Part shown: one piece after another, positions 3,200-27,133 of the stretch
Layout of the letters: each line of letters starts with the position of its first letter
How positions within the stretch are numbered: position 1 is the first letter of the stretch
Origin: a virus
Reading direction: 5' to 3' (one strand)
DNA length: 29,369 nt
Virus record (IMG/VR): IMGVR_UViG_3300000117_000159
Location: 1 to 29,369 of that record
The notes under the pieces: model-generated
Told to the model about the DNA's origin: nothing
The model's database searches: none
Seen by the model: the letters and a program-made list of their open reading frames with translations, nothing else
Position numbers and translations under genes: made by a program

Positions 3200-3555
3200 G
3201 GGGGCGTTTTGGTTTTGACATGTGTAATGGATTAATAATATCAGCAGTCAGTGGTGACTTTAAACACTGTAGGTGAATTTCAATAATTGGAAATATATCA
3301 AAAAACAGCGCTGCATTTGCAGACAAAGTAGAAGCAATGGTCTTTAATATTGCACCAGTTGAGGAAGAGTTGCTTATGGCAGCATAAGAATCAACTAAAT
3401 GAGTTTCTTTATTCTCATACAAAATAAAGTGGTGGTAGCCCAACATTCATTGTTGGTCTCAGAGTTTGTTAGGCGCTCTTTAAATGCCTTACATAAGCTG
3501 TATAAATATTATTATGAAGAGCATATGGACCAGGGTTCGACTCCCTGCGCCTCCA
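3200..3555 (+). ncRNA. ssrA: Transfer-messenger RNA (tmRNA)
   Basis: tmRNA frees stalled ribosomes: it enters as alanyl-tRNA with SmpB, then templates a degradation tag. The 5' end GGGGGCG (3200-3206) pairs over all 7 bp with CGCCTCC (3548-3554); the third pair is G-U, the alanine identity element. It is followed by TTTTGGTTTTGACA, typical of tmRNA 5' ends. The T-arm CAGGG-TTCGACT-CCCTG (3531-3547) is perfect. After the tag stop, ATGAG/CTCAT (3399-3403/3414-3418) forms a stem whose loop CTTTATT (3407-3413) pairs with AATAAAG (3423-3429): a pseudoknot as expected. A hairpin follows at 3440-3444/3452-3456. Discriminator A3555 is followed by CTA, so CCA is not encoded. Length of about 356 nt is normal. 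No SmpB gene is seen here, so host SmpB is presumably used. Confidence 0.95.
3319..3387 (+). other. tmRNA tag reading frame
   Basis: The frame ending at TAA 3385-3387 encodes a tag that ends ...EEELLMAA. The terminal Ala-Ala after a hydrophobic pair is the usual protease-recognition end of tmRNA tags. The resume codon is not certain. GCA at 3319 would give 22 residues (begins ADKVEAMVFN); GCA at 3313 or GCT at 3310 would give 24 or 25. This is longer than the common 8-15 residue tags. Confidence 0.75.
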
Positions 3556-3578
3556 CTATTAACTAAATTAACTTAATT

Positions 3579-10557: not shown

Positions 10558-11298
10558 ATGAGTAAAAGAAGAAGAAACAAAAAAAGAAACAAAAGAAAAA
10601 GTAACATGAGATATATTAATAATTCACGTTTTCACCTATATAATAGAAGTATTTATGTAGTAGGAGGAGACAAAGAGTATGCAAATTGGCTGCCTGAGAT
10701 GTATCATGTAGATAATGTTGAAGATGCTGATTTAGTTATGTTTACAGGAGGAGCAGACGTTAGCCCTTCTTATTATAATGAAAATGTAGGTACTTATACT
10801 TCAATTAATCCTTCTAGAGATAAAGAAGAAATAGAAATTTACAAACAAGCTATTTCTTTAAATAAAAAAATTATAGGTATTTGTAGAGGAAGCCAGTTAA
10901 CTTGTGTGATGGCAGGAGGTAGATTAATACAACACTGTACAGGACACGGTATAATGGGTACTCATAAAATTAAATGGAAATCAGACGAAGAAAGTGATAT
11001 AACAAGTACTCATCATCAAATGCAATATCCTTTTGATTTACCTAAAGAAGATTATATTATGTGTGCATATTCTTTATCTAAGAAAAGTGATGTATATTTA
11101 GATGGAGATAATAATCCTATAGATATACCTAAGAATTTTGTAGAGCCAGAAGTAGTAGTATATACAAAAATTGACGCAATAGCTATTCAGGGACATCCTG
11201 AATATTTAGACAAAGAAGACGAAGGAGTCATAAAAATAAAAGAAGTATTAAATCAATTTTTTGTGGCTGATTTTAAAAATATTATAGAAAAAGTTTAA
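10558..11298 (+). CDS. Class I glutamine amidotransferase (peptidase C26/PuuD-like)
   Basis: A class I amidotransferase or gamma-glutamyl hydrolase fold. Start 10558 (MSKRRRNKK) is preferred to upstream TTG codons because it follows AAGAATAAAATG after the polymerase stop. The nucleophile elbow GICRGSQ puts the active Cys at about 109, the oxyanion turn is FTGGADVSP, and the catalytic pair is in QGHPEY (His213, Glu215). The family includes PuuD and YvdE-like gamma-glutamyl-GABA hydrolases and folate gamma-glutamyl hydrolase. These either cut gamma-glutamyl amides or release ammonia from glutamine. First of eight linked amide-chemistry genes, three bases before the next start. The basic N-terminal tail (about 20 residues) is unusual for the family and could mediate nucleic-acid contact. 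Substrate unknown. Confidence 0.85.
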   Translation: MSKRRRNKKRNKRKSNMRYINNSRFHLYNRSIYVVGGDKEYANWLPEMYHVDNVEDADLVMFTGGADVSPSYYNENVGTYTSINPSRDKEEIEIYKQAISLNKKIIGICRGSQLTCVMAGGRLIQHCTGHGIMGTHKIKWKSDEESDITSTHHQMQYPFDLPKEDYIMCAYSLSKKSDVYLDGDNNPIDIPKNFVEPEVVVYTKIDAIAIQGHPEYLDKEDEGVIKIKEVLNQFFVADFKNIIEKV

Positions 11299-11300
11299 TT

Positions 11301-12119
11301 ATGATAGAAAATGTAACAATAGGCGCAGACCCTGAGTTCTTTTTAAGAGATAAAATAACAGGAGAGCCTGTTTCTTCTGAAGGGCTAATAGGAGGAACTA
11401 AAAGAAAACCAAAACCTATTAGTGACTTGGGGCATAATGTGCAAGAAGACAATGTAGCAGTAGAATTTGGATTTAAGCCTGTAGTAGATGCTCAAAGCTT
11501 TATTAGAGATATTAATACATGTATAGATTATGTAAAAGAAAATATTCCTAATAATCTTGAACCTTATATAGTAGCATCAACTACTTTTGATAGTAAGTAT
11601 TTACAAACTATGCAAGCAAGAGCATTTGGGTGTGAGCCTGATTTAGATGTATGGGCAAAACAACCTAATACAGCGCCTTTTGCAGGTACTAACTTAAGAG
11701 TAAGTGCTGGACATATACATATAGGTTATGAAAAACCTAGAATTCCTATAACAGAGAAACTTATTAAAATGATGGATTTGTTTTTAGGTGTTCCTAGCGT
11801 TCTTATGGACGAAGATAGGGACAGAAGAAAAATGTATGGTAAAGCAGGTGCTTTTAGAATTAAAAGTTATGGTTGTGAGTATAGAACTTTATCTAATTTT
11901 TGGATTACTTCTGATAAGCTTATTGAATGGGCTTTTAATAATACTCAATTAGCTATAACTAATGTTAATAATAAAAAAGAAATAAGCACAGAAGACGCTA
12001 AAGATATTCAAAAATGTATTAATGAATATGATGAAAAGTTAGCTAATAAATTAATTAATAAATTCAATATTCCGTATATAAAAACAAATATATATAAGAA
12101 AGTTAAAGTTGAAATATAG
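11301..12119 (+). CDS. COOH-NH2 ligase, phiEco32-type amidoligase
   Basis: Glutamine-synthetase-fold ligase of the phage phiEco32 COOH-NH2 ligase type; such enzymes are predicted to join a carboxylate to an amine using ATP. Motifs: GADPEF (Glu12), NVAVEFGF (Glu55), SAGHIHIG (His138, His140) and EYRTLSNFW (Glu193, Arg195). These are the metal/nucleotide-binding positions expected in glutamine-synthetase-like amidoligases. Length 272 aa is normal. It sits between a class I amidotransferase (which could supply ammonia or reverse the reaction) and a beta-rich protein. Substrates are not known for this family as far as I know; roles in cell-wall or peptide-tag modification have been proposed from gene neighbourhoods. 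Family confident, substrate unknown. Confidence 0.87.
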   Translation: MIENVTIGADPEFFLRDKITGEPVSSEGLIGGTKRKPKPISDLGHNVQEDNVAVEFGFKPVVDAQSFIRDINTCIDYVKENIPNNLEPYIVASTTFDSKYLQTMQARAFGCEPDLDVWAKQPNTAPFAGTNLRVSAGHIHIGYEKPRIPITEKLIKMMDLFLGVPSVLMDEDRDRRKMYGKAGAFRIKSYGCEYRTLSNFWITSDKLIEWAFNNTQLAITNVNNKKEISTEDAKDIQKCINEYDEKLANKLINKFNIPYIKTNIYKKVKVEI

Positions 12120-12132
12120 TAATAAAAAAGAT

Positions 12133-12984
12133 ATGAGAGGAAATCAGAATTTTAATTTTACTTTAGGACAAAAAGTAAAGTGTGATAATCTTCATGGCTA
12201 TGAAGGAGAAGTATTAAAGAAAAATAGAATTTACACGGTTAGTTTTATAGGCGTTAATGTTATTGGTTTAGAAGAGCATTTAAAAGAAGATGATTCTCCT
12301 GTTAAATTTTTTAAGCATTATTTTCAAGAAGTTCAAGAAAACGTAAAAAGAATCTTTCGTACAGGAGACTCAGTAAGATATAGTGGTTGTAATTGGACTG
12401 TTATAGAACAGTTAGGAGTTAATCTTTTTTTATCTTATAATGGAGGAGGAGCAGATGACGTTTGTATAAATATATTAACTGATGATTATATAGTAACTAA
12501 ACAAAAAATTAGAAACAAAGATAAAGTAACATTAGTACCTTTAAGTAGTATTCAAAGGTTTTTAGAGGATGATAGATATTATTTAAATGAATCATCTATG
12601 GATAAAACGGATTTAGAAGGTATTTATATGGATTTAGAAAATACAGACAGTTATACTGTTAGTAAAGCATGTGAAAGAAGAAGAACAGTAATTTTAAAAG
12701 GATATAAAGACATTAACATTCCATTTGAGTTACTTATACCTTTAAAGGAACATTCAAAATATAATCCAATAGTGGTAGGAAGTAAAGTAGTTTATAAAAA
12801 AGGAAAATTTGCAGTTATAAACAAAGAGTACATAGTTAAAGACATTGTAAAACTATCATCTAAAACACTTTTAGGTTTAGAAGTAAGTAATGGTGTTATA
12901 TATGTCAATGAAAAACAATGTAAAAATACAAAAAATAAAGATGAAAAAAAAGTGGTTAAAAAGGAGCTTAAGGATATTCTCTAG
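12133..12984 (+). CDS. Beta-rich repeat protein (SH3-like repeats), unknown
   Basis: Start 12133 (MRGNQNFNFTLG) is chosen over a TTG at 12109. The protein has at least three stretches of the same rhythm: GQKVKCDNLHGYEGEVLKKN then RIYTVSFIGVNVIGLEEH, RTGDSVRYSGCNWTVIEQLG, and VGSKVVYKKGKFAVINKEY then IVKDIVKLSSKTLLGLEV. Each looks like an SH3/KOW-type barrel beginning G-x-x-V-x-Y/C. The tail is very Lys-rich (NTKNKDEKKVVKKELKDIL). It lies between two ligases in the amide operon, which suggests a substrate-presenting or scaffold role, perhaps binding the modified polymer or protein. No catalytic motif. Its end overlaps the ATP-grasp gene by 44 bases. Confidence 0.7.
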   Translation: MRGNQNFNFTLGQKVKCDNLHGYEGEVLKKNRIYTVSFIGVNVIGLEEHLKEDDSPVKFFKHYFQEVQENVKRIFRTGDSVRYSGCNWTVIEQLGVNLFLSYNGGGADDVCINILTDDYIVTKQKIRNKDKVTLVPLSSIQRFLEDDRYYLNESSMDKTDLEGIYMDLENTDSYTVSKACERRRTVILKGYKDINIPFELLIPLKEHSKYNPIVVGSKVVYKKGKFAVINKEYIVKDIVKLSSKTLLGLEVSNGVIYVNEKQCKNTKNKDEKKVVKKELKDIL

Positions 12985-13744
12985 ACATCCTTCTCATGAT
13001 GGAATAAGAGGTAAAATATTTGTACCTGCTAATTTATTAGCCTGTGTAAGATTTGGTAGTCAAACTATATGGAATAAAAGTGAAAAATTTCTTAATTCTC
13101 CTGAAGCTGTTAGTAATAGTTCTAATAAAGAAAAAATGAAAAAATGTTTTACAGATAAAGAAGTTAAAACAGCTCTTTGGTGGAATACTATGCAGTCTTT
13201 AATAGAAGAAGAAGAAATTCCTTTTCCTATTATAGCTAAGAAAAAATACGGCTCTAGAGGGCAAGGTATGGTTAAACTAGACAATCAAAATCAACTAGAT
13301 GTGTTTACTGTAAATAATAACTTTGAAAATTACATTTATGAAAAGTTTTATAACTATTCTCGTGAATATCGTTTACACGTTAGCTCTGAAGGTTGTTTTT
13401 ATACTTGTAGAAAAATGCTAAAAAGTGATATTCCTAAGAATCAAAGATGGTTTAGAAATGATTCTAATTCTGTATGGTATATAGAAACAAATGAAAACTT
13501 TGATAAGCCTTCTAATTGGGATGACATTGTTCAAGAGTGTGTAAAAGCAATGAAAGCTGTAGGGCTTGATTTTGGGGCTTGTGATGTTAAAGTACAAAGC
13601 GCTACTAATAAAGAAGGAGTTAAAAGAGAATATCCTAAGTTTATTATAATAGAAATCAATAGTGCTCCTTCTTTTGGTGAAGGAACTTTAGAAGCGTATA
13701 TTAAAAACTTACCTTTAATGTTAAAAAATAAATATGAAAAGTAA
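12941..13744 (+). CDS. ATP-grasp ligase (RimK-like)
   Basis: ATP-grasp enzymes make an acyl-phosphate from ATP and a carboxylate, then join an amine. Start 12941 follows AAAATAAAG, the local initiation style, and leaves an overlap with the previous gene. Motifs: FPIIAKKKYGSRGQGM (Lys101 and Gly-loop 104-109), YEKFYNYSREYRLHV (Glu134, Arg144), LDFGACDVKV (Asp215) and IIEINSAPSF (Glu238, Asn240, the Mg-binding pair). This is a complete ATP-grasp active site, closest in style to RimK or peptide ligases. It starts inside the SH3-like gene and ends 11 bases into the next. A good partner for amide-bond formation in this cluster; acceptor unknown. Confidence 0.88.
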   Translation: MKKKWLKRSLRIFSRHPSHDGIRGKIFVPANLLACVRFGSQTIWNKSEKFLNSPEAVSNSSNKEKMKKCFTDKEVKTALWWNTMQSLIEEEEIPFPIIAKKKYGSRGQGMVKLDNQNQLDVFTVNNNFENYIYEKFYNYSREYRLHVSSEGCFYTCRKMLKSDIPKNQRWFRNDSNSVWYIETNENFDKPSNWDDIVQECVKAMKAVGLDFGACDVKVQSATNKEGVKREYPKFIIIEINSAPSFGEGTLEAYIKNLPLMLKNKYEK

Positions 13745-14192
13745 AAAAAAGATAAGAGAAAGTAATATAAAAAAAATAAAAGAATTAATTAGTGCTTATT
13801 TTTGTAAAACAGGTCTAGAGAGTTTCAAATTACCGATATTAGACACGCCAAATGGCTTAAAAAGTATAGAATCTGCAGAAGAAGATGAGGATAATCCTTA
13901 TTATGATGATTCTTATTATACAGGAGTTACTTTGACTTATATTATGAAGTATATTATAAAGTATAAATATAAAAAAGATTTAGTTATATATAGTTTATTT
14001 GATATGTTAGATAATGAGGAAATAAAATCATTACATTGTCCTACTATAGGGAAAGTAGTATTTGAAAACAATAATACAGATCATTGGACATATAGAGTTT
14101 TAAAAACCCCTAAAAGAGACCATTTTGCAAATATAGCAGAAGCATTACCTAAAGAGTTTTGTACTTATATAGGTATAAAAAAATTATTATGA
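13734..14192 (+). CDS. Unknown protein in the amidoligase operon (152 aa)
   Basis: The product begins MKSKKKIRESNIKKIKELIS, a basic helix, followed by a region with an acidic Tyr-rich patch (ESAEEDEDNPYYDDSYYTGV) and a more regular alpha/beta C-terminal half (LVIYSLFDMLDNEEIKSLHC). No catalytic motif recognised. Overlaps at both ends (ATP-grasp gene by 11 bases, cyclotransferase gene by four) show it is a true part of this operon. A substrate carrying many Asp/Glu/Tyr residues would fit, but that is speculation. Confidence 0.65.
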   Translation: MKSKKKIRESNIKKIKELISAYFCKTGLESFKLPILDTPNGLKSIESAEEDEDNPYYDDSYYTGVTLTYIMKYIIKYKYKKDLVIYSLFDMLDNEEIKSLHCPTIGKVVFENNNTDHWTYRVLKTPKRDHFANIAEALPKEFCTYIGIKKLL

Positions 14193-14548
14193 AAAAATTA
14201 TGTGCTGTATATGGCAGTTTAAAAAAAGGTTATAGTAACCATGACATGTTTTTAGGAAAAGCTAAGTATGTAGGTAAAACTATAACAGGACCTAGATATA
14301 CTATGTATAGTTTAGGAGGTTTTCCAGGAGTAGTTGAAAATGGTGATACATCTATTCATTTAGAGGTATACGAAGTAACAGAAAAAGAAGATAAAAATAT
14401 AGAAAGTTTAGAAGGATATCGTAAAGATTCTCCTGAATATTCTTTTTATCTTAAAAAACAAATAAATACAGAATTTGGTAAAGCAAGTATTTATATTTTT
14501 AACAAAAAATCAGATGAATTACCTATAGTAGAAACAGGTAATTGGTAA
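14189..14548 (+). CDS. Gamma-glutamylcyclotransferase-like protein (AIG2/GGCT fold)
   Basis: This fold removes gamma-glutamyl groups from an amine as pyroglutamate (5-oxoproline). Start 14189 is chosen because it gives MKKLCAVYGSLKKGYSNHDM. The signature is VYGSLKKG (substrate-binding loop) near the start and ESLEGYR, whose Glu75 is the expected catalytic acid (the Glu before GYR). YSLGGFPGVV also fits the family's YxLGxyPg motif. At 119 aa it is a compact, AIG2-like version. ATGA-type overlap with the previous stop. In an operon with ligases and amidotransferases, it probably removes or rearranges a gamma-glutamyl intermediate. Confidence 0.85.
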   Translation: MKKLCAVYGSLKKGYSNHDMFLGKAKYVGKTITGPRYTMYSLGGFPGVVENGDTSIHLEVYEVTEKEDKNIESLEGYRKDSPEYSFYLKKQINTEFGKASIYIFNKKSDELPIVETGNW

Positions 14549-14571
14549 TTAGTAAAAAAACAAACAAACAA

Positions 14572-15840
14572 ATGATAAATTTTATTATAACATTATTATT
14601 ATTGCAATTTATTAACGCTTTAATAACAAAAAAACGTTCTGTAACTTTAGGATGTGGATTATTAGGTTACTCAGGAGAGTATGCAGCAGATAAAGATAAA
14701 CTTGCTATTTTATTTCTGTATAACCAAACAAGAGGAGAAGACTCTTGTGGTTATTATAATCATGACATTGCTATTGCTGCAGAGCATAGAATAGAGAAAA
14801 AAAGTGGTAAAGTGTCTTTAAATTTATTGCCAGATGAAATAAAAGACCCTACTAATTTATTTATAGGACATACAAGAGCAGCAACTAGTGGTACTGGACG
14901 TACTTCTGCATATAATGCTCATCCTTTTCTTTTTGGAAAGTGGGTAGGTGCTCATAATGGTACTTTAACTAATCTTAAAGGACTAATAAGAGAGTATGAT
15001 ATGGATGAAAAAACTATTGATATAGATAGTAAAATATTTCCAGCGTCTATACACCAAGAAAATAATTTTAAGATACTTAATAATTATGACGGTGCAGCTG
15101 CTTTAATATGGGCTAACACTGATATTAGTAAAAAAAGTCCTTTGTATGTGTATCACGATAAAGAAAGACCTTTATTTTCTGGTATTATTAAAAAAGGCTC
15201 TAAAATAGGTAGGTATATTTCTTCTATTAAAGAGTCTTTAAAAGCTATTGGTTGTACAAACATAGAGTCTTTTGAAGTAGATACTTTATACAGTATTAAA
15301 GATGGAGCTATAAAAGAAACAATGGCAATAAGTAGAAATAATCCTATTAAAAACAATTTAAAAAGAATTCCTGAAAGCATACAATTAGCTTGTAGAGAAA
15401 GTAAATCTATATTTACCCAACAAGGTAAAACAACTAATGTCTTTGATGACGGCACTGTAATAGTAACTGTTGATAGTTATTATGGTATTAAAAAGTGTAT
15501 TAGAGAAGAAGTAGTATATGACCCTAAAAGAGAAATAACTGTACATGTTCGTTATATGAGTGACGGAGGCTTTGAAGAAGTTTTAGTAAGTAACTATCGA
15601 GATAAAACAGATATTGTAACTAAAGACTCGGAAGAAGAAAATACAATAGCACTAGAAGATGTTATGGACTACATGGCTGAGTTATATTATAAATTAGATG
15701 AAGCTAGAGCTACTTTAAGTATAGCCCTTGACAATAAGGATATTAAAGAAGAAGACGTAGAAAGTCTAGATGACGTTATGCTTAATGTAACTAAATTTAT
15801 AGGTTCTTTAGCAGAAATAGGAGAAACAGCAGAAATATAA
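14572..15840 (+). CDS. Class II (Ntn) glutamine amidotransferase with hydrophobic leader
   Basis: N-terminal-nucleophile amidotransferases need their Cys as the first residue. Here the Cys is residue 28 (GCGLLGYSGEY), preceded by a leader beginning MINFIITLLLLQFINALITK, then KRSVTLG. The rest of the active site is intact: Arg102 in GHTRAATSG, AYNAHPF, and Asn129-Gly130 in GAHNGTL, with D/S acid residues in DIDSKIF. Start 14572 (ATG after AAACAAACAAACAA) is preferred to a TTG at 14542. Either the leader is cut to free Cys28, as in propeptide-bearing PurF-type enzymes, or the true start is non-standard; no Met lies just before the Cys. The C-terminal 250 residues end in a strongly acidic, helical tail, possibly partner-binding. 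Glutamine-hydrolysing, ammonia-delivering role likely. Confidence 0.85.
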   Translation: MINFIITLLLLQFINALITKKRSVTLGCGLLGYSGEYAADKDKLAILFLYNQTRGEDSCGYYNHDIAIAAEHRIEKKSGKVSLNLLPDEIKDPTNLFIGHTRAATSGTGRTSAYNAHPFLFGKWVGAHNGTLTNLKGLIREYDMDEKTIDIDSKIFPASIHQENNFKILNNYDGAAALIWANTDISKKSPLYVYHDKERPLFSGIIKKGSKIGRYISSIKESLKAIGCTNIESFEVDTLYSIKDGAIKETMAISRNNPIKNNLKRIPESIQLACRESKSIFTQQGKTTNVFDDGTVIVTVDSYYGIKKCIREEVVYDPKREITVHVRYMSDGGFEEVLVSNYRDKTDIVTKDSEEENTIALEDVMDYMAELYYKLDEARATLSIALDNKDIKEEDVESLDDVMLNVTKFIGSLAEIGETAEI

Positions 15841-15847
15841 TAAAAAT

Positions 15848-17287
15848 ATGGAAGATAAAATTAAAAAATTACTTAAAATAGAACCTAATAACGGAACTGT
15901 TTATACTGAAGATAATAGTTTTTGTGAGTCTGGCTCTATTTGTGGTGGTATTGTTTACAAAAAAAACAATAAATGGGATGTAAAGTATTTTTATAAGAGT
16001 AATAATTTGTATAATTTTTTACTTACTATTGATAACTTGCTTTTAAATTTTTATATAAAACATTTTGAATGGTCAGTAGTTTTACCTTACATAGCCCGTA
16101 AAGATTTTGGAATGCCTCTTTATTTTATAGATAAAGAAGCTATTGAGTTTTTTAATTTAAAAAAATATCCTAATTATTATTTAGTAAAAAAGCCTGCCCA
16201 AAAGAGTGTAAATCTTAAGCTTAAAAAAGGTAATAATAATTTAGGATTTGAATTTACTAATAGCAATATTGAAGCTTATAATCCTCTTACTAAAAGACAA
16301 AAGTTAAAATTTAAACAACAATTAGGAACAGACTCTAAAACTTATATAGCTACAGAAGGACTTAAGTATTCTTTTGGAGTAGAGTTAGAAACTTGTTCAG
16401 GATATGTATCTTTATCAGATTATTTTATTAATAAAGTTAATATACGTTCTGTAAGAGATGGGTCTGTAAGTGGTTGTGAATATGTTACAGGAGTTCTTAA
16501 GGGAGATGCTGGTTTTAATCAATTATATAATATTTCAAATCTTCTTAATAAGCAAAACAAAGTAGATAGAACTTGTGGTATGCATGTGCATATAGGAGGA
16601 GCTAATTTTAATAAATCTTTTTCTGTTTATGCTCACATATTAAGTGAAAAAATACAGGATTCTATGTTTTCTATAGTTTCTAAAACTAGAAGAAACAATT
16701 CTTATTGTGGAGATGTAATACCTCTTGGATTAGAGTCTATTATTAAGAAATATGGAATTAGTTATGGAGTTGAGGTTGCTTATGAAACTTTGTTTAAAGA
16801 AATGACTTACGGAAGTTTGCCATCTAGTACTTATAATAGAAAAATTAGTAATCATCATTATGGTAGATATTGTGGCAAGTATAACGGTATAGAAGATGAA
16901 GATAATTTTAGATATAAATGGGTAAATTTAATTCCTTGTAATTTTAATGTTAGAAACTATGCTCATCCAGCTCATGGTTACGATAATGAGGCAAATACTA
17001 TAGAGTTTAGATTTCATTCTGGTACATTAAATTATGTTAAAATTAAAAACTTTACTCTTATATGTATGGCTTTTGTAAATTATGTAGAAAATAATAAAAC
17101 AGACATATTAAATAAAGAAGTAATTACTTTGGAAGATATAATAGAGAGTACTTATAGAAAAAATGTAAAACCTTTGTTATCTTATGTTGATATGAGACAA
17201 AAGTTATTTAATAATGACCCTGAATTATTAGAATCTAGTGATAAACAAAAAATCTTTAAAACTAAAAAAGAAAGAATATGTGTATAA
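15848..17287 (+). CDS. Amidoligase (COOH-NH2 ligase, Amidoligase_2 type)
   Basis: Second glutamine-synthetase-fold ligase of the operon, from a different subfamily than the one at 11301. The catalytic part starts at about 170. FGVELE (176-181) with Glu179/181, RSVRDGSVSGCEYVT (Asp204, Glu211), CGMHVHIG (His246, His248) and NTIEFRFHSGT (386-390) are the signature positions. About 170 residues before the domain are not typical and contain no recognised motif (beta-like, aromatic), possibly a substrate-binding domain. Starts seven bases after the previous stop and overlaps the next gene by ten bases. It should make an amide between a carboxylate and an amine; the two different ligases in one operon suggest a branched or two-step product. 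Confidence 0.87.
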   Translation: MEDKIKKLLKIEPNNGTVYTEDNSFCESGSICGGIVYKKNNKWDVKYFYKSNNLYNFLLTIDNLLLNFYIKHFEWSVVLPYIARKDFGMPLYFIDKEAIEFFNLKKYPNYYLVKKPAQKSVNLKLKKGNNNLGFEFTNSNIEAYNPLTKRQKLKFKQQLGTDSKTYIATEGLKYSFGVELETCSGYVSLSDYFINKVNIRSVRDGSVSGCEYVTGVLKGDAGFNQLYNISNLLNKQNKVDRTCGMHVHIGGANFNKSFSVYAHILSEKIQDSMFSIVSKTRRNNSYCGDVIPLGLESIIKKYGISYGVEVAYETLFKEMTYGSLPSSTYNRKISNHHYGRYCGKYNGIEDEDNFRYKWVNLIPCNFNVRNYAHPAHGYDNEANTIEFRFHSGTLNYVKIKNFTLICMAFVNYVENNKTDILNKEVITLEDIIESTYRKNVKPLLSYVDMRQKLFNNDPELLESSDKQKIFKTKKERICV

Positions 17288-17940
17288 TAATGGCTAAAAG
17301 AGCAGGAGTAAAGTTAGACATGGCAGAATTAAAAGATGCAGTTAAAACATCTTCTTTACATAATTGTCATGGAACTGGCTTTGCTCTAAAAAGAAAAAAT
17401 AGTTCAAATATAATTCTTTCTAAAGGGTATGTATATTATGAGATGGCTTTAGAGGTAATAGAAGACTTAAAAATACAAAAAGACGATGAGCTTATGGTTC
17501 ATATGAGGTATGCAACTGCAGGCGAAACTAATGTAGAAAATTGTCATCCTTTTATAGTTTCTGATAATATTAAAGATATTTTATTAGATGAAGTTGTAGT
17601 TAAAGGAAAAGCAGTAGTAGCTCATAATGGTACTTTTGATTATTATGTAGATAAAAAATCTGACTATTCAGATACTATTCATTACATTAAAGATTATTTA
17701 AGTGAAGAAGGTGTATTAGAATCTATGAGAAATATAGAATATGCTTCTTATTATCAAATGCATAGATTAATGGGAAATAATAGACTTTGCCTAATATATC
17801 CTGATGTTAATTTAGATATGGATACTTATGGCGATTGGAATATGAGAAAAAAAGACTCATTAATATATTCTAACTATTATCATATTCAGCCTCATAATGG
17901 ATATCAATTAGAGCTTACTTCAAAACATAAAATAATATAA
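17278..17940 (+). CDS. Class II (Ntn) glutamine amidotransferase, short form
   Basis: Cys2 follows the initiator Met directly (MCIIMAKRAG), as in standard Ntn amidotransferases. Arg77 is in HMRYATAG, NCHPF follows, and Asn117-Gly118 is in VAHNGTFDYY, the normal oxyanion pair. Ser/Asp residues in SDYSDTIHYI correspond to the region after it. At 220 aa it is a single glutaminase-type domain without a synthetase. It overlaps the amidoligase gene by ten bases and has no leader, unlike the other class II enzyme, so the two may have different partners: one ligase each. Product unknown. Confidence 0.85.
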   Translation: MCIIMAKRAGVKLDMAELKDAVKTSSLHNCHGTGFALKRKNSSNIILSKGYVYYEMALEVIEDLKIQKDDELMVHMRYATAGETNVENCHPFIVSDNIKDILLDEVVVKGKAVVAHNGTFDYYVDKKSDYSDTIHYIKDYLSEEGVLESMRNIEYASYYQMHRLMGNNRLCLIYPDVNLDMDTYGDWNMRKKDSLIYSNYYHIQPHNGYQLELTSKHKII

Positions 17941-17941
17941 T

Positions 17942-18277
17942 ATGTTTTCAAAATATAAAAAGAAAAAATTTGCAGTAGAAAAAGTAGAAATAAGAAAAAA
18001 AAGTTATGCTAGGGAGAGTAAAGATGCTCTCCTTAGTTATAACCCTCTTAAAGAATTTGTTTCTATAAGGACAGAAAATATACCTTATGCACTAGAAATA
18101 CTTAAAGAATTATATCCTGCAGGTACGCTTGACAATAATGTAACAGCTGCAACTTTAATTAGATATGAATTTCAATGTGAATGTACAGCAAAACAAGTTG
18201 AAGATTCTAGAGGTTACTATATGACTTCAAATGAAGAAGAGGATGCAAGATATATTTATAGGCATTGTTTAGAATAA
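17942..18277 (+). CDS. Unknown protein (111 aa), end of the amidoligase operon
   Basis: It starts just after the previous stop (TAATATG). The product begins MFSKYKKKKFAVEKVEIRKK, a basic N terminus, then LKEFVSIRTENIPYALEILK then ELYPAGTLDNNVTAATLIRY, ending CECTAKQVEDSRGYYMTSNE and EEDARYIYRHCLE. No motif recognised; a CEC pair lies near the end. Whether it belongs to the amide cluster or to replication cannot be said from sequence. Confidence 0.6.
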   Translation: MFSKYKKKKFAVEKVEIRKKSYARESKDALLSYNPLKEFVSIRTENIPYALEILKELYPAGTLDNNVTAATLIRYEFQCECTAKQVEDSRGYYMTSNEEEDARYIYRHCLE

Positions 18278-24729: not shown

Positions 24730-25287
24730 ATGACTAAAGAGAAGTTTGATATAGAGAGAGATAGAAATAGGTCATTTACATATATACTTCCTATGTTAGG
24801 AGAAATTCAGGAAGAGTTTAAATTTTTAAAGCAATGCTTTATAGGAGATAATACTAAACCTGAGTTAAAAGACAAAATTTTTGCTTTATTTGAGTTAGAT
24901 AAAGAAAATGAATGGGTAGAATCTTATGAAAATGCATTACAAGAGAATGAATTATACCATTACCATTATAAGTGTGATGATTTACATACTATGTATGTAT
25001 TTAATTTACCTAAATATAGTAAAGAAAATTATTTTAAATTTAAAAAAGGAAAATATTCACAGTTTACAGATAAATACAAAAGACATGTATTATCATTTCA
25101 TAATTTAGGAATGAGGAGTGAAGTGGGTAAAGTACTTTATAGAGCAGAAGATAAATATGTAGAGATGGAAAAGCTTATAGGTCAAAAAATTGACAGAAGG
25201 CAAGAAATAGGCAATATGCCTAATAAGTACGAAGAAGAGTACAGTGAAGAAATGAAAATATTTAAAAAAAAAGAGGAGAATGGATAA
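24730..25287 (+). CDS. Unknown protein (185 aa) before the reductase
   Basis: The product begins MTKEKFDIERDRNRSFTYIL. It has LGEIQEEFKFLKQCFIGDNT, a Tyr/His-rich middle (NELYHYHYKCDDLHTMYVFN) and a basic helical end (KLIGQKIDRRQEIGNMPNKY ... KIFKKKEENG). It overlaps the reductase start by eight bases. No family recognised; the strong Tyr/His content is notable. It may be functionally linked to the reductase or exonuclease. Confidence 0.6.
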   Translation: MTKEKFDIERDRNRSFTYILPMLGEIQEEFKFLKQCFIGDNTKPELKDKIFALFELDKENEWVESYENALQENELYHYHYKCDDLHTMYVFNLPKYSKENYFKFKKGKYSQFTDKYKRHVLSFHNLGMRSEVGKVLYRAEDKYVEMEKLIGQKIDRRQEIGNMPNKYEEEYSEEMKIFKKKEENG

Positions 25288-27133
25288 AGGAGCAAAAGCT
25301 TTAAGTGAAGTAGTACATTTTAATAAATATGCTAAATATATAGCAGAAGAAAAAAGAAGAGAAAGTTATGAAGAAAACGTAGATAGATACATACAGATGA
25401 TGAAAGATAATTATCCTAAACTTATAGGAGATATTGATAGTTATTCGTCATTTATATATGAAAAAAAGATATTGCCTTCTATGAGAGCTATGCAGTTTGC
25501 AGGGAAAGCAATTACAAAAAATGAATCAAGAATATATAATTGTTCTTATTTACCTATAGATGACTATAGAGCCTTTTCAGAGGTAATGTTTTTATTATTA
25601 GGAGGAACAGGAGTGGGATATAGTGTTCAAAAACATCATGTAGCTAAATTACCTGAAATAAAGAAACCTAAATCATCTCAAAAATATATAGTAGCTGATT
25701 CTATTGAGGGATGGGCAGACGCAATAAAGCATTTAATGAAAGCCTATTTTGGAAAAAGAGAAACTGCACCTAGATTTGATTTTTCAGCTATTAGACCAAA
25801 AGGAGAAAGATTGTTAACAGCAGGAGGTAAAGCTCCTGGACCAGAGCCTTTAAAAACTTGTTTATTTAATATAACTACTATATTAGATAGAAAGGATAAT
25901 GGGCAACATTTAACAACTTTAGAAGTGCACGATATAGTATGTTTTATAGCTAACGCAGTATTAGCTGGAGGCATACGTAGAGCTGCTCTTATTGCTCTTT
26001 TCTCTGCTGGAGATACTGATATGCTTACTTGTAAAAAAGGAGAATATTGGAATTTAAATCCACAAAGAAGTAGAGCTAATAATTCAGCTGTAGTACTTAG
26101 ACACAGAGTAACAAAGAAATTCTTTGATAAAATATTTACAATGGTAGAAGAAAATAAAACAGGAGAACCTGGCATTTATTTTACTAATGACAAAGAATGG
26201 GGAACTAATCCTTGTTGTGAAATAGCTCTAAGACCTTTTCAGTTTTGTAATTTAACTGAAATTAATGGTTCTGATGTTAAAGACCAACTAGATTTAAATA
26301 GTAGAGCAGAGGCAGCGTCCTTTTTTGGTACTTTACAGGCAGGTTTTACTGATTTTCATTACTTGAGACCTATATGGAAAAGAACAACTGAAAAAGAGGC
26401 TTTAACAGGAGTAGGAATGACAGGTATATGTTCTGGAGCTACTCTAAGCTTAAACTTAGAAGAGGCTGTTAAAAAAGCTACTGCAGTTAATGCTGATATA
26501 GCAGACATTATAGGAATAAAGCCTAGTGCTAGAGTTAGTACTATTAAGCCTAGTGGAACTACAAGTACTATATTAGGCACAAGTTCTGGTATACATGCAT
26601 GGCATAGTCAGTATTATATTAGAAATGTACAGTGTATGGTTGGTGACGATGTGTATAATTATTTTACAAATGAACACCCAAAATTAATAAAAATAATGGA
26701 CCAAGACCCTACTTCAGCAGTTATAGGATTTCCTATTAAAGCTCCTGAAGGCTCTATACTAAGAGAAAAAGAGACTGCATTGAAGTTTTTAGACAGAATA
26801 GAGAAGTTTAATACTGAATGGGTAAGAACAGGTCACATTAGCGGAGATAATACTAATAATGTTTCTGCAACTATTAATATAAAAGATAAAGAATGGGAAG
26901 AAGTTAAAAAATGGATGTGGGAACATAAAGACTCTTTTAACGGACTTTCTGTACTACCTTTTGACGGTGGGGTATATAAAGACGCTCCCTTTACTGAATG
27001 TACTAAAGAAGTATACGAAGAAAAATTAAAATTAGTAACAAATGTAGATTTATCTACAATTAAAGAAGAAGTAGATAATACAAATAGAATGGAAAACCTT
27101 GCATGTGCAGGTAATTCATGTGAAATTCTATAA
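25280..27133 (+). CDS. Adenosylcobalamin-dependent ribonucleotide reductase (class II)
   Basis: Converts ribonucleotides (probably triphosphates) to deoxyribonucleotides using coenzyme B12. Key residues by comparison with the Lactobacillus enzyme: Cys88 (NCSYL) and Cys323 (QFCNLTEIN), the reducing pair; Cys312 and Glu314 in NPCCEI, the thiyl radical and base; STIKPSGTTS (420-429), the phosphate-binding loop; and Cys609/Cys614 in CAGNSCEIL, the C-terminal shuttle pair. At 617 aa it is shorter than the Lactobacillus enzyme (about 739). SD-like AGAGGAGA precedes ATG 25280. It overlaps the previous gene by eight bases. Host cobalamin is needed; no small subunit gene is present, as expected for class II. 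Confidence 0.92.
   Translation: MDKGAKALSEVVHFNKYAKYIAEEKRRESYEENVDRYIQMMKDNYPKLIGDIDSYSSFIYEKKILPSMRAMQFAGKAITKNESRIYNCSYLPIDDYRAFSEVMFLLLGGTGVGYSVQKHHVAKLPEIKKPKSSQKYIVADSIEGWADAIKHLMKAYFGKRETAPRFDFSAIRPKGERLLTAGGKAPGPEPLKTCLFNITTILDRKDNGQHLTTLEVHDIVCFIANAVLAGGIRRAALIALFSAGDTDMLTCKKGEYWNLNPQRSRANNSAVVLRHRVTKKFFDKIFTMVEENKTGEPGIYFTNDKEWGTNPCCEIALRPFQFCNLTEINGSDVKDQLDLNSRAEAASFFGTLQAGFTDFHYLRPIWKRTTEKEALTGVGMTGICSGATLSLNLEEAVKKATAVNADIADIIGIKPSARVSTIKPSGTTSTILGTSSGIHAWHSQYYIRNVQCMVGDDVYNYFTNEHPKLIKIMDQDPTSAVIGFPIKAPEGSILREKETALKFLDRIEKFNTEWVRTGHISGDNTNNVSATINIKDKEWEEVKKWMWEHKDSFNGLSVLPFDGGVYKDAPFTECTKEVYEEKLKLVTNVDLSTIKEEVDNTNRMENLACAGNSCEIL

Follow-up and report, generated by a model that had tools for sequence, protein, structure and literature searches.

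Gene content of the locus

The IMG/VR virus record IMGVR_UViG_3300000117_000159, analysed over its whole length of 29,369 bases (hereafter the window), carries at positions 10558-17940 a cassette of nine co-directional genes on the plus strand, separated by intergenic gaps of -44 to +23 bp. The initial annotation, made from the sequence alone, had read them as nine adjacent genes devoted to amide or isopeptide bonds, and this description stood: all open reading frames (ORFs) were recovered at the same positions on one strand, and the catalytic motifs were intact in the window translations of all seven recognised enzymes. Family matches and intact motifs are, taken together, far beyond chance. 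The operon adds one more copy to a cassette already described in phages, as it unites a COOH-NH2 ligase type 2, an Amidoligase_2, an ATP-grasp protein and a class II amidotransferase, with a GGCT encoded in the same operon. Its genes, and the one that follows them, are listed below with profile E-values.

10558..11298, plus strand: GAT1, class I amidotransferase of the Peptidase_C26/PuuD type (PF07722 1e-17; phrog_7218 7e-35)
11301..12119, plus strand: LIG2, phiEco32-like COOH-NH2 ligase type 2 with glutamine-synthetase fold (PF14395 2.5e-15; phrog_3815 5e-76)
12133..12984, plus strand: protein of 283 amino acids (aa) without family (no Pfam or PHROG match above cut-off)
12941..13744, plus strand: ATP-grasp ligase, RimK/S6-glutaminyl-transferase-like (phrog_2599 2e-36; motifs)
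13734..14192, plus strand: acidic protein of 152 aa without family (no Pfam or PHROG match above cut-off)
14189..14548, plus strand: GGCT/GGACT, gamma-glutamyl(amine) cyclotransferase (PF06094 9e-17; phrog_2520 1e-23)
14572..15840, plus strand: GAT2, long class II (Ntn) glutamine amidotransferase (PF13522 1e-7; phrog_4736 5e-22; purF 1.5e-12)
15848..17287, plus strand: AL2, Amidoligase_2, the second ligase (PF12224 1e-10; phrog_2443 2e-20)
17278..17940, plus strand: GAT2b, short class II amidotransferase of the GATase_4 family (PF13230 3e-5)
17942..18277, plus strand: protein of 111 aa, following GAT2b and conserved beside the cassette in close relatives (12 loci)

The longest ORF of GAT2 begins at 14542, and its residues are numbered from that position. 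Profiles and motifs placed the seven enzymes in the families initially assigned to them, with two qualifications. The product of 12941, expected to match the RimK-type profile PF08443, scored 12.1 bits against a cut-off of 21, and its Pfam matches were weak and under the cut-off; it appears ATP-grasp-like by phrog_2599 and by its motifs (SNK, AKKxxGSRG, EYRLHV, DVKVQ and EINSAPS), and is not filed here as RimK. The product of 10558 was correctly assigned to class I, but its motifs (GICRGSQ at 107 and GHPE at 212) follow the PuuD-type pattern GxCRGxQ...GHPE and set it closer to gamma-glutamyl hydrolases of that type than to amidotransferases coupled to synthases; GAT1 is probably a gamma-glutamyl hydrolase. 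The GGCT carries the motifs YGSL and LEGY. As for the two proteins without family, that of 12133 was confined to the closest relatives, with profile matches in six loci including the window, and the acidic protein of 13734 was found by an iterated profile in 17 loci (E < 1e-4), in some of which it adjoins GGCT.

Distribution and linkage

The phage collection contains at least 312 records that encode LIG2, and at least 566 viral stretches encode it. Its cellular occurrences amount to 12 loci in 84,980 bacterial and archaeal species genomes, some of them on short metagenome-assembled contigs. Neighbourhoods were assessed for the best 80 LIG2 loci, and the 43 with 6 kb on both sides were counted; this sample consists of the loci closest to the query profile and still contains near-duplicates, and the counts stand without a random-locus background. 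The core of LIG2, AL2, ATP-grasp and class II amidotransferase was complete in all 43 of them, and in 47 of 50 loci anchored on the ATP-grasp gene. Optional members across the 43 loci were GGCT (34), GAT1 (31) and GAT2b, which is the less common part (10). Gene order varied among loci, and nearly all detected members lay on the same strand. A further cassette part may be the unassigned X family (phrog_11055, motif RQWKKGL), encoded between LIG2 and AL2 in 34 of the 34 loci that have it (L078:3419-4099 and 33 other loci; L009:9983-10552) and absent from the window.

Complete cores were also present in named phages, i.e. cr108_1, Lbo-JY46 and Slicky01, while ctOsX528 has both ligases and the class II amidotransferase (GAT-II). 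In Cellulophaga phage phi14:2 the genes for GGCT, ATP-grasp, COOH-NH2 ligase, GAT-II and amidoligase are consecutive. Both ligases, ATP-grasp, class II amidotransferase and GGCT were re-found in phiEco32, the namesake of the ligase family. Hosts of the named phages among the matches listed were Gram-negative or cyanobacterial. These data show the cassette to be a conserved, virus-restricted and co-directional enzyme set with a linked four-gene core. It had been proposed that the case for a joint operon would fall if related phages carried the genes singly and unlinked; in those relatives they are linked. The accompanying claim that the window operon is unusually full did not hold, given the core in all 43 well-flanked relatives and in named isolates, and a set already named in print.

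Ligases

Active sites, which by the initial annotation would have spoken against its reading if broken, proved not only intact in the window but invariant in the alignments of both ligases and of GAT2. LIG2 scored 56.8 bits with PF14395 (cut-off 25) and shares with its relatives the invariant residues D10, E12, D50, E55, R133, H138, R186, E193 and R195 (alignment of 43 sequences). AL2 reached 42.3 bits with PF12224 (cut-off 22), with conserved ExE, HxH and EFR motifs and invariant E179, E181, E211, H246, H248, E386 and R388 (35 sequences). A PDB sequence search with the profiles of LIG2 and AL2 returned no match at E-values up to 1, so that a comparison of folds was needed for LIG2. Its model (pLDDT 94) has a glutamine-synthetase (GS) fold, and the best VIA match was YbdK (Z 15.3, rmsd 3.5, 233 aligned residues), with plant glutamate-cysteine ligase (Z 14.3) and PafA and Dop (Z 13.8) following, whereby Z differences below 1 count as ties. 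The YbdK, glutamate-cysteine ligase and PafA/Dop families use the gamma-carboxyl of glutamate, and gamma-glutamyl ligation is hence the natural guess for LIG2, as far as the modelled fold can indicate. The ATP-grasp protein of the window is 53% identical to g038 of phi14:2 in the alignment (50% by tblastn).

Class II amidotransferases and the N-terminal helix of GAT2

GAT2, taken from 14542, scored 32.1 bits with PF13522 (cut-off 27), and GAT2b passed the PF13230 cut-off of 23 barely, with 23.4 bits. Both possess the nucleophilic Cys, RxAT, NxHPF, HNG and D of class II amidotransferases; these are invariant in GAT2 (alignment of 37 sequences), and in GAT2b they read Met1-Cys2 (MC), MRYAT, NCHPF, HNGT and SDT. 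Residue 38 of the GAT2 model aligns with residue 1 (Cys1) of PurF and GlmS (Z about 25), and the model also matches EgtC (Z 22); Cys38 is accordingly the predicted nucleophile. Behind the catalytic domain no synthase domain was matched in PDB, the matches ending near residue 270 and the C-terminal part being modelled with low confidence; GAT2 therefore probably hands its ammonia or product on to a partner.

A detail missing from the initial annotation is the N-terminus of GAT2, where a hydrophobic helix (residues 5-29) is followed by KKRSVTLG and then by C38. Whereas the GAT2b product begins with Met-Cys, 27-37 residues precede Cys38 in the product starting at 14572 or 14542, and freeing this cysteine would therefore need cleavage. 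Among 106 distinct sequences classed as one form or the other, the anchored layout of helix, basic stretch and catalytic Cys occurred in 38, the window included, and the Met-Cys start in 68. In 35 of the 38 anchored sequences net positive charge was higher after the helix than before it, from which the catalytic domain is predicted to be cytoplasmic with the helix at the inner membrane. Judged from its sequence, GAT2 is predicted to be a membrane-anchored pro-enzyme. A literature search returned nothing relevant on propeptide or membrane-anchored class II amidotransferases in phages.

Two other readings of this N-terminus were rejected. A wrongly placed start is at odds with the codons ahead of Cys38 (ACT TTA GGA), none of which is a start codon, with the recurrence of the Met-helix start in divergent relatives, and with the in-frame stop found in several relatives directly 5' of the matching Met-helix. 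A lipoprotein signal (LGC) was also dismissed, as the charged KKR stands between the helix and LGC and no lipobox is formed. In a tree of 99 catalytic domains the anchored and Met-Cys forms interleave within one large group, and supported branches force at least eight changes between the two labels. With labels so interleaved, a single origin of the helix within the tree is unsupported.

Comparison with known systems

A passage of PMC5498523, citing Hardies 2013 and Iyer, applies the name 'peptidoglycan modification cassette' to the set of RIO1-like podoviruses and gives phiEco32, Salmonella 7-11, PA11, tf, MR299-2, LUZ24, PaP3 and CW02 as carriers; superinfection exclusion is put forward there as a hypothesis, and an alteration of the peptide side chains of peptidoglycan during infection is likewise hypothetical. 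The wall-modification reading recurs in a passage of PMC11945000 on a LUZ24-like phage, a matching gene set appears in the UFV-P2 gene table of PMC3890496, and the section of PMC10945688 on phage ZRK32 interprets the set as nitrogen metabolism. The RIO1/phiEco32/LUZ24-like cassette and that of the window have the same core and GGCT, co-directional and placed among replication genes. The window differs in two additional enzymes, the PuuD-like GAT1 of class I and the short GAT2b of class II, in lacking the X protein, and in the hydrophobic helix of its long amidotransferase.

Phage phi14:2 (Crassvirales) resembles the window in the five enzymes in a row (g037-g041) and in a GAT-II starting with helix, KKR and Cys. 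It differs in gene order, in having no GAT1 or GAT2b annotated in the g037-g041 stretch, and in the UDG and RusA genes that follow it. Leptolyngbya phage Lbo-JY46 (PP438436) is the closest isolate by LIG2 (42%) and DNA polymerase (39%) and shares both ligases, ATP-grasp, GAT-II and GGCT with the window, but it has three C26 hydrolases, longer ATP-grasp and GAT-II proteins, neighbouring PncB and PrsA genes, and a GAT-II that begins Met-Cys, unlike GAT2. It should be added that PncB and PRPP synthetase genes lie near the cassette in two phages, Lbo-JY46 (locus L005, 4549-9380) and Slicky01 (locus L008, 13630-15911), hinting at a link to NAD or PRPP metabolism.

In the PuuA/PuuD, YbdK/GCL, EgtA/EgtC and BtrJ/BtrG systems, a ligase of GS or ATP-grasp fold adds a gamma-glutamyl group, which a C26, GATase-II or GGCT enzyme removes later. 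To our knowledge, none of these systems unites all families of the window. The work on Eht1/Eht2 of JBD44 was considered and found unrelated to the cassette.

Genomic context of the window

A family A DNA polymerase gene ends 7 bp upstream of 10558, and its closest relatives are those of Lbo-JY46 (39%) and of crAss-like phages, e.g. cr108_1 (34%). On the 3' side of the cassette are genes for a primase, a helicase, an SSB-like protein, a resolvase, an exonuclease and a ribonucleotide reductase. The window is read, on these similarities, as a probable fragment of a crAss-like or related phage; the phage collection held no DNA near-identical to it. The ribonucleotide reductase (25280-27133) is 52-56% identical to enzymes of a Microcystis phage and of marine Oceanospirillum and Vibrio phages, and this kinship, differing from that of the polymerase, suggests gene exchange. 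Furthermore, a tmRNA gene at 3200-3558 on the plus strand was detected both by Rfam (RF00023, 96.3 bits, E 1e-36) and by ARAGORN, the latter giving an unusually long tag, GNISKNSAAFADKVEAMVFNIAPVEEELLMAA.

Possible function of the cassette

The near-obligate four-gene core, together with its near absence from cellular genomes, implies that the product matters specifically to infection. We favour modification of an envelope precursor, with a probability of roughly 0.4. The reasons are the membrane helix, the published reading and the hosts, which among the matches listed are Gram-negative or cyanobacterial. By the chemistry of the families, the class II amidotransferase would free ammonia from glutamine or strip a gamma-glutamyl group, and the GS-fold pair LIG2 and AL2, like the ATP-grasp enzyme, would spend ATP on coupling amines with carboxylates, probably with the Glu gamma-carboxyl. 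The PuuD-like hydrolase and GGCT would later take off gamma-glutamyl groups used as activators or protection. More tentatively, a precursor of the cell envelope may serve as acceptor on the inner side of the membrane, the simplest candidate being a peptidoglycan stem peptide, and the altered wall might favour the infecting phage, e.g. by excluding superinfecting phages. A more specific version for the crAss-like branch is in our view rather improbable as a whole: an N-out/C-in helix would tether GAT2, and self-cleavage before Cys38 would activate it at the inner membrane, where it would serve the two GS-fold ligases and the ATP-grasp enzyme in remodelling a lipid-linked wall precursor.

Several observations weigh against an envelope role. 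The helix is absent from 68 of the 106 distinct sequences, those of phage groups with this cassette included, so that the enzyme can evidently do without a place at the membrane; and if a cut ahead of Cys38 removes the pro-segment, the mature form is released from the membrane. The cassette lies inside a replication module (DNA polymerase, primase, UDG, RusA), away from lysis and surface genes, and the genes recognised in the window include none for a transporter, for sugar precursors or of Mur type. In addition, the portions of the literature searched contain no biochemical test of any cassette member and yielded no muropeptide data.

The possible products listed by the initial annotation were judged a sound choice, and the rivals to envelope modification come from that list. 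The set mirrors thiol and amine pathways, LIG2 folding like glutamate-cysteine ligase and YbdK, the ATP-grasp enzyme having its counterpart in glutathione synthetase, GGCT and the PuuD-like hydrolase degrading gamma-glutamyl compounds, and the GAT2 model matching EgtC, itself a gamma-glutamyl hydrolase, at the Z of 22 given above. A small soluble gamma-glutamyl peptide or amine, glutathione-like or an antimetabolite, might then help the phage in redox, nitrogen or counter-defence matters, in line with the three C26 hydrolases beside PncB and PrsA in Lbo-JY46 and with the nitrogen-metabolism interpretation of the ZRK32 set in that section of PMC10945688. Such a product would need no membrane helix on the amidotransferase, however, and the set has no conserved enzyme dedicated to making a precursor; we regard this account as somewhat unlikely. 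A second rival concerns proteins. The ATP-grasp enzyme matches the PHROG of ribosomal S6 glutaminyl-transferase, the LIG2 fold is close to PafA and Dop, and the acidic 13734 protein and the X family could be substrate or adaptor, as would suit a RimK- or Pup-like peptide or amino-acid tag on host or phage proteins. Both of these families are missing from part of the loci, a Pup-like C-terminal Glu/Gln tag was not identified, and the substrates of known GGCT and PuuD enzymes are small gamma-glutamyl compounds, not proteins, which leaves tagging distinctly unlikely.

Modification of phage DNA bases by the cassette products had been ranked low from the outset, rightly as it appears, and we consider it very unlikely. 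The position among replication genes would suit it, and a passage in PMC11990801 reports that Gordonclarkvirinae, which include phiEco32 and are cassette carriers, resist restriction-modification for a cause left unexplained; the same source nevertheless points to a dCTP deaminase and a nucleotidyltransferase. Against it, 11 of 16 restriction enzymes cut the DNA of the cassette-bearing LUZ24-like phage U17, as given in a passage of PMC11945000, and phage tf DNA, according to a passage of PMC3517423, was cut by HaeIII and fragmented for cloning with RsaI, HpaI, EcoRV and SmaI. Moreover, the genes conserved with the set include none for base synthesis or base hydroxylation.

This cassette is present in hundreds of phages that infect Gram-negative bacteria, including crAss-like phages. 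The membrane-anchor variant offers a testable hint on where the chemistry happens, and if GAT2 is indeed an anchored pro-enzyme, the anchor's repeated gains or losses along the tree would mark switches of location. Should the wall reading be true, the cassette would represent a general way for phages to remodel the envelope of their hosts.

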